64,000 bases of DNA from Sulfurifustis variabilis (GTDB taxonomy: Bacteria; Pseudomonadota; Gammaproteobacteria; Acidiferrobacterales; Sulfurifustaceae): positions 1,674,001 to 1,738,000 of the forward strand of contig NZ_AP014936.1 of assembly GCF_002355415.1 (NCBI RefSeq), read 5' to 3'. Under the pieces are notes generated by a model. That model searched no databases. It was not told the origin of the DNA and saw nothing but the letters and a program-made list of their open reading frames with translations. Numbering within the stretch: the stretch's first letter is position 1; the number at the start of each line of letters is the position of its first letter. Both the position numbers and the translations under genes were made by a program. This document shows positions 43,429 to 43,735 of the stretch, in pieces.

Positions 43429-43505
43429 CGGGGCGTAGCGCAGCCTGGTAGCGCACCACCTTGGGGTGGTGGTGGTCGGAGGTTCAAATCCTCTCGCCCC
43501 GACCA
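43429..43505 (+). tRNA. tRNA-Pro (GGG)
   Basis: Acceptor CGGGGCG pairs with CGCCCCG, discriminator A, encoded CCA. The anticodon loop TTGGGGT gives anticodon GGG, reading CCC/CCU. The last 16 bases of the gene are the first bases of a 138-base repeat unit, so they recur at 43628-43643. Confidence 0.97.
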
Positions 43506-43735
43506 TCTGTCCCAGCCGTCCCTGGCGTCACTTCCCGACTTCGACCGGCCCCGGCCCGCACTTCCGTGTGCGGGCGCTCGGCCGCATGGATGCACGTTAA
43601 GTGCATCCATGAAGACCCGGCTCTCGCCCTCTCGCCCCGACCATCTGTCCCAGCCGTCCCTGGCGTCACTTCCCGACTTCGACCGGCCCCGGCCCGCACT
43701 TCCGTGTGCGGGCGCTCGGCCGCATGGATGCACGT
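43490..43735. repeat. tandem direct repeat of 108 bases (138-base period) starting in tRNA-Pro 3' end
   Basis: Bases 43490-43597 recur without mismatch at 43628-43735. The unit begins with the last 16 bases of tRNA-Pro (including CCA), followed by about 90 bases that contain a hairpin (43554-43575, copied at 43692-43713). In the first unit only, a perfect 10-base palindrome follows (43586-43610). The copies diverge after 43735. The junction shows an eight-base direct repeat, CTCTCGCC, at 43621 and 43629. Tandem duplication, or a trace of an integration event at the tRNA, is inferred. Confidence 0.9.

Follow-up and report, generated by a model that had tools for sequence, protein, structure and literature searches.

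The tandem repeat that follows the tRNA-Pro(GGG) gene in this window (the whole stretch of 64,000 nucleotides that was analysed) most probably, at a probability of about 0.7, records the insertion of a dispersed, non-autonomous, hairpin-rich element, here called E, whose 3' end is fixed at insertion while the tail of the target gene is copied, with tandem recombination and erosion as later steps. We compared the flanks of 95 copies of E, the best 95 of 125 matches to our covariance model R1, in 86 loci drawn from among the matches listed in the genome-wide R1 search (region L173 was uninformative). In 35 of these 95 copies, the downstream flank is repeated upstream, starting at base 0 after E (score of at least 26), and the upstream repeat copy is preceded by CC in 34 of the 35; in these copies the 3' end of E is fixed, the tail of the target is copied from immediately after CC, and the gene is left whole.

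At the window locus, TRF reports a tandem repeat at 43490-43739 (period 138, 1.8 copies, 99% match), and a repeat search finds 115-nt copies at 43490-43604 and 43628-43742 which are 98% identical. Read directly from the sequence, 43490-43597 equals 43628-43735 over 108 bases, an exact identity that rules out a chance origin, and the repeat starts 16 bases within the 3' end of the tRNA-Pro(GGG) gene placed by ARAGORN at 43429-43505. An earlier note on this DNA had described just such a 138-base tandem repeat copying the tRNA-Pro 3' end, with an exact 108-base duplication from 16 bases inside the tRNA and two palindromes, one without its right arm in the second copy; TRF, the repeat search and ARAGORN bear out the description, the palindromes lying at 43554-43575 and 43585-43611 and the second of them being the damaged one. 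Judged by the sequence, the functional boundary is two bases further on, at CC/TCTCG (a slash marks the join), that is, at 43491/43492 and 43629/43630. The 138-bp unit consists of a 20-bp tRNA-Pro tail (A) and the 118-bp structured element E, and it is followed by a second A and by an E without its 3' part, in the order tRNA ...TTCAAATCC / A1 / E1 (ending ...CTCGCCC) / A2 / E2:

43429..43505, plus strand: tRNA-Pro(GGG) gene, intact (ARAGORN, Rfam RF00005)
43492..43511, plus strand: A1, first tail copy, the tRNA from its T-arm CC onward and 6 further bases; belongs to the intact tRNA gene (sequence; alignment for the repeat start)
43512..43629, plus strand: E1, complete 118-bp element with the 3' end ...CGCCC/ (covariance model R1, 118.6 bits)
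43515..43526, plus strand: E1 hairpin 1, GCC..GGC, from the consensus structure and absent in the single-copy fold (RNAalifold)
43554..43575, plus strand: E1 hairpin 2, 8-bp stem, compensated variation among relatives (consensus structure)
43585..43611, plus strand: E1 hairpin 3, 11-bp stem, GTTAA loop, compensated variation (consensus structure, fold)
43630..43649, plus strand: A2, relic of the tRNA tail (sequence, repeat search)
43650..43742, plus strand: E2, second element, missing from mid-hairpin 3 on (98% identity to copy 1 up to 43742; R1 71.1 bits)

The earlier note had reasoned that simple tandem duplication would be enough if the unit occurred only here and strains differed in unit number, and the DNA search that it proposed found further copies both in the genome and in relatives, so the unit is not confined to this locus. 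Copies of the post-tRNA part were found at five other loci of the host genome, and the same-family search gave more, with 59 of 60 genomes matching the region, mostly via the tRNA itself. In the host genome, model R1 had 21 matches at E<=0.01 (seven above 110 bits). Of 116 genomes, a set that includes the host, 30 had matches: the host itself, 18 of the 19 relatives from its family, and 11 that are more distantly related. The exact hairpin-3 pattern was present in 16 stretches of named GTDB genomes (Sulfuricaulis, Acidiferrobacteraceae, Ca. Muproteobacteria, and one record labelled Bacillota) and in no viral contig. From 22 collected sequences we aligned 21, dropping one divergent copy and restoring the last bases in some; the mean column identity is 80%, and RNAalifold predicts three hairpins; of the 29 pairs in its prediction, 16 have one or more compensatory changes. 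Three E copies were more stable than shuffled sequences (z -4.5, -2.9, and -4.9), and the 3' terminus is CCC in 91 of the 95 copies examined. A "mobile palindromic unit", one of three ideas in the earlier note, is the best of them, as the unit recurs in the host genome and its relatives. The "collapsed integration scar" found no such backing: no phage or plasmid record had a match to the repeat region, which speaks against an origin from either; the window's ORFs between 38 and 50 kb, read by eye, showed no integrase; and E carries no att core, the copied segment at each other locus being the target's own sequence.

Several copies deserve separate mention. In the consensus, CTTCGATnnACCCC often precedes hairpin 2 and resembles a T arm, which may be a relic of an ancestral tRNA target. 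A weaker E-like match in the window (62382-62473, minus strand, 55.6 bits) lies inside an ORF at 60904-62940 (plus strand, uvrC-like by eye) and appears to be carried in frame as added residues. Head-to-head E twins in genus g5 (L102, L103, L107, L113, L117, and others) have TGTTAATCCTGT-like sequence beyond their outer ends and no tail repeat, and in a genome of another family (G075, locus L167) tandem E-like units about 145 bp apart adjoin tRNA-like sequence.

The repeat at the junction is well above its background. With the upstream flank alone, a base-0 repeat was found in 34 of 95 copies against 3 of 280 swapped-flank pairs, and swapped pairs gave a repeat at any offset in 12 of 280. The repeated segment ranges from 13 to more than 100 bp across loci. 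The other 60 copies, head-to-head twins among them, had no base-0 repeat at that score (two start 1-2 bases off), which is indicative that decay is common or that a second mode exists. Most targets with a base-0 repeat are tRNA genes, entered in the T arm in the sense direction, at TTCRARTCC/, and in the D arm in the antisense direction, at GCTCTACC/AACTGAGC, with a few other antisense tRNA sites (all by eye); other antisense targets look by eye like the starts of protein genes (e.g., rng-like, response-regulator-like, and others). Within 60 bp of a tRNA gene lie 25 of the 95 copies, at ten isoacceptors, although tRNA genes with 60 bp on either side make up only about 0.2% of the host genome; 13 of these 25 are sense and 11 antisense with the 5' side of E toward the tRNA, and one is neither. 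Because orthologous loci occur within the sample, counts of E are not counts of independent events. As the gene end is copied on both sides of E, the tRNA gene stays whole.

We also scanned the host genome independently of the E model. Among its 42 ARAGORN tRNAs (43 Rfam hits), a downstream copy of at least 12 bases was found at seven, and five of these copies span from the T-arm CC, or at most 3 bases before it, to the tRNA end (Ser-gct, Ser-gga, Pro-ggg, Glu-ctc, and Gln-ctg); the remaining two are 12-base T-arm look-alikes. Upstream copies were found at 3 of the 42, all next to an RtT-like core. Comparison of 20 tRNA-Pro(GGG) loci, host included, found an exact extra TCTCGCCCCGACC downstream in nine of them (10 copies, 9 after CCC), and 11 loci had no exact relic, two of these (L012 and L013) carrying a decayed E by eye. 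The sequence ahead of the relic differs, being E in some loci and other hairpins in L015, L022, and L023 (by eye). Relics that follow CCC behind differing elements point to repeated use of one position, and the same base of the tRNA-Pro(GGG) gene seems to have been used more than once. From the tRNA-Pro gene to the surE-like start is 70 bp in the relic-free locus L027 and 394 bp in the host genome.

A comparable layout is found in an RNA family of E. coli. The K-12 tyrT repeats (rttR) read GGTTCGAATCC/TTCCCCCACCACCATC... element ...GAGTAATCC/TTCCCCC..., in three units and a final relic, and the element in them is annotated RtT (Rfam RF00391). The primary papers on these repeats are reportedly those of Rossi and Landy and of Bosl and Kersten. 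RtT matches occur in 4692 of 5426 E. coli genomes, at 1 to 10 places per genome, and two E. coli strains have six and four annotated RtT features. In our 116 genomes (host included), RF00391 matches 20, six of them above the family cut-off. We scanned 40 RtT loci, several of them overlapping, for the arrangement seen at the window locus, i.e., a position after a tRNA gene with the tail re-copied from the T arm: in 32 of the 40, the tail copy begins within AATCC or one base earlier, usually after GAGT, in L271, L274, and L278 it starts elsewhere, and five loci had no such tail-copy row (L237, L251, L260, L267, and L272). The tRNA-Pro(CGG) gene has the same tail-copy layout in E. coli, Klebsiella, and Salmonella records, and its element is covered to at least 80% at one place in 2663 of the 5426 E. 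coli genomes. At this gene, A is followed in strain SK1144 by no more than the start of the element; strain 64A:C reads A E A, its 20-base relic carrying two mismatches, and H240 reads A E A E5'. These differences fit end erosion and a change in unit number within one species. No Rfam family passed its threshold for E, and RF00391 itself had no match in the window at the gathering score or in four E loci at E<=5; as far as sequence goes, E is not RtT, yet its layout is the same. Against a structural role for RtT, the K-12 tyrT element is no more stable than shuffled sequence (z 0.38); the aligned cores do show compensation. In the open-licence literature we found no account of mobility or of tRNA-gene insertion with tail copying. 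According to PMC4986893, RtT is an RNA freed from tRNA transcripts and is also found close to other tRNA genes; in Salmonella it has been described as a variable repeat of 175 bp (PMC2658671), and a tandem GA motif has been reported for it (PMC7657543).

The host genome itself has RtT-like matches at four places that fall short of the cut-off. Three of the four follow tRNA-Ser and tRNA-Gln genes, and RtT-like elements at such genes (host, G000, loci L290, L294, L283, L289, and L300) in some cases split a tRNA copy. By eye, three gene copies adjoining intact tRNAs are interrupted by an RtT-like core: a tRNA-Ser(GGA) copy split in the T loop (TTCGA/core/AATCC), a tRNA-Ser(TGA) copy split in the anticodon loop (CTTGA/core/AAAACC), and a tRNA-Gln(TTG) copy split in the T loop. 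The core model, R2, was built from 21 of 30 cores, each with the following AATC, after overlapping, near-duplicate, and one N-bearing sequences were dropped; it has a compensatory change in 9 of 14 pairs and matches 15 places in the host genome and 11 in one E. coli chromosome. GA directly precedes the R2 start in 10 of 14 loci inspected and one base later in one more; the remaining three are E. coli tRNA-Arg units. Five host loci (L323, L324, L325, L327, and L328) have RtT-like cores in apparent other palindromes, after AAAGA, GAAGA or GGGA. Two of the E. coli places come after 5S sequence (L307 and L308), with a further copy of the 5S tail beyond the core. In K-12 rrnB (L331) this second 5S tail, AACTGCCAGGCATCAAAT, lies between the core's far side and the next gene region, flanked by two terminator-like hairpins which we take to be T1 and T2. 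The rrnB terminator region is used in many expression vectors. We suspect that the RtT-like core is the same as E. coli BoxC. BoxC is listed as 50-56 bp (PMC2267715).

In the reading that we favour, these arrangements arise in four steps. The 3' end of a single-stranded E would be transferred to the CC/ site of the target; repair synthesis that starts from the opened site would copy the gene tail and then join it to the variable 5' side of E; unequal recombination between A copies would generate tandem units; and the last unit would erode by terminal deletion, which would explain the varied relic ends and the cut of E2 within hairpin 3. The enzyme would act in trans; no gene for it was found with E (30 Y1 loci). 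We infer this mechanism from sequence, no movement having been observed.

The main competitor is template switching during replication or repair, in which hairpins lead synthesis to another E copy and back, with no dedicated enzyme, and the tail duplication and E itself are by-products; tRNA genes would then be favoured because they fold. Variable repeat length, the CC common to the join, in-register truncated last copies, RtT-like cores that also sit in other palindromes (by eye), and the lack of a linked gene would all follow from it. We nevertheless consider it improbable, though a serious minority reading, since microhomology should then vary, yet the join is the exact end of E and follows CC almost without exception, and since the RtT-type family, which sits at different tRNAs, usually ends in a way of its own, with AATCC, mostly after GAGT.

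Less probable still is that the arrays are a functional RNA module in which the copied tRNA tails serve as decoys for enzymes that process or modify tRNA. The compensatory changes and the reported release of RtT from tRNA transcripts are consistent with such a role, and the decay of the relic tails and the antisense position of E at apparent protein-gene starts (by eye) speak against it; as this role is compatible with an origin by insertion, its odds overlap those of the others, and the odds of the alternatives taken together need not sum to one. Retro-type insertion, in which a nick at CC primes DNA synthesis on an E RNA whose 3' end is fixed, leaving a long, variable target duplication, would account for the fixed 3' end, the variable 5' side, and the length of the repeat, and a reverse transcriptase (PF00078) is encoded in the host (three), G004, G008, and G015. 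It is nonetheless very unlikely, and a reverse transcriptase is an unlikely driver, with PF00078 in 6 of 24 genomes only and not found in the five E-rich genomes G011, G013, G016, G018, and G019, several of which are incomplete. That slippage at the CTCTCGCC microrepeat, the third idea of the earlier note, duplicated the unit locally, with E no more than tRNA flank, has hardly any chance as a full account: the unit copies are tandem and near-identical and slippage could still explain a change in unit number, but it leaves unexplained the dispersed copies of E at other loci and in other genera, the fixed CC/ junction, and the 70 bp against 394 bp between tRNA-Pro and the surE-like start in L027 and the host.

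For the enzyme acting in trans, a Y1-type (HUH, RAYT-like) single-strand nuclease is our first guess, a tentative one with the odds against it. Y1 is present in 78 of the 116 genomes, and with genome counts pooled irrespective of completeness, it was found in 19 of the 20 genomes with RtT and 59 of the 96 without (p=0.003), in 23 of 30 E-bearing genomes against 55 of 86 others (p=0.26), and in 15 of 17 genomes with at least eight E copies against 63 of 99 others (p=0.053). Within the family, the copy number of E tracks Y1 (Mann-Whitney p=0.0015), the six Y1-less genomes having 0-3 copies. Of 30 Y1 loci scanned, 28 had no E-like match in the fetched flanks and two had one at 45-50 bits; E does not flank Y1 genes, and we rejected a Y1/RAYT enzyme acting in cis. 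A paper on a small mobile element of Haloquadratum concerns an unrelated system.

We put at even odds the idea that E, the RtT elements, and the post-5S insert of rrnB form one mechanistic class: gene-less structured elements moved by an enzyme in trans into the hairpin loops or arms of stable RNAs (tRNA T, anticodon, and D; 5S), with the gene tail copied so that the RNA gene survives. Such insertion would then have left its footprints in the tyrT repeats and in the second 5S tail of rrnB. The layout shared with E. coli tRNA and rRNA genes suggests, by analogy, an overlooked kind of tiny mobile element, which would give one cause for the tyrT/RtT repeats, for the variable repeats that follow tRNA genes, and for part of the terminator region of rrnB, and would predict a trans-acting enzyme that recognises tRNA-gene hairpins and is testable in E. 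coli.

Among known systems, MITEs and ERIC-like repeats are short, non-coding, structured, and repeated, as is E, but single copies of E have no terminal inverted repeat (by eye), and the duplication of 13 to more than 100 bp is outside what defines MITEs and unlike the repeat length of known transposases. REP and REPIN sequences resemble E as dispersed palindromic non-coding elements, sometimes in head-to-head pairs; RAYT genes, however, are described as flanked by their own REPs (PMC2817692), which is not so for E around Y1 genes. The main text of that paper does not contain the word "tRNA", and known IS200/IS605 members are described as making no larger target duplications. The tRNA-targeting integrative elements and casposons likewise target the tRNA gene end and preserve the gene, five casposon targets overlapping 4-7 bases of tRNA 3' ends (PMC4046053), whereas E carries no gene, the segment copied is the target's own, and its sites are in the T arm and the antisense D arm. 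RtT, too, is a hairpin element right after a tRNA, and there as well the tail is copied again from the T arm onward, units stand in tandem, the last one is truncated in several loci, and strains vary in unit number; RtT usually ends in AATCC after GAGT, against CRCCC in E, and E, unlike RtT, is also found in antisense D arms.
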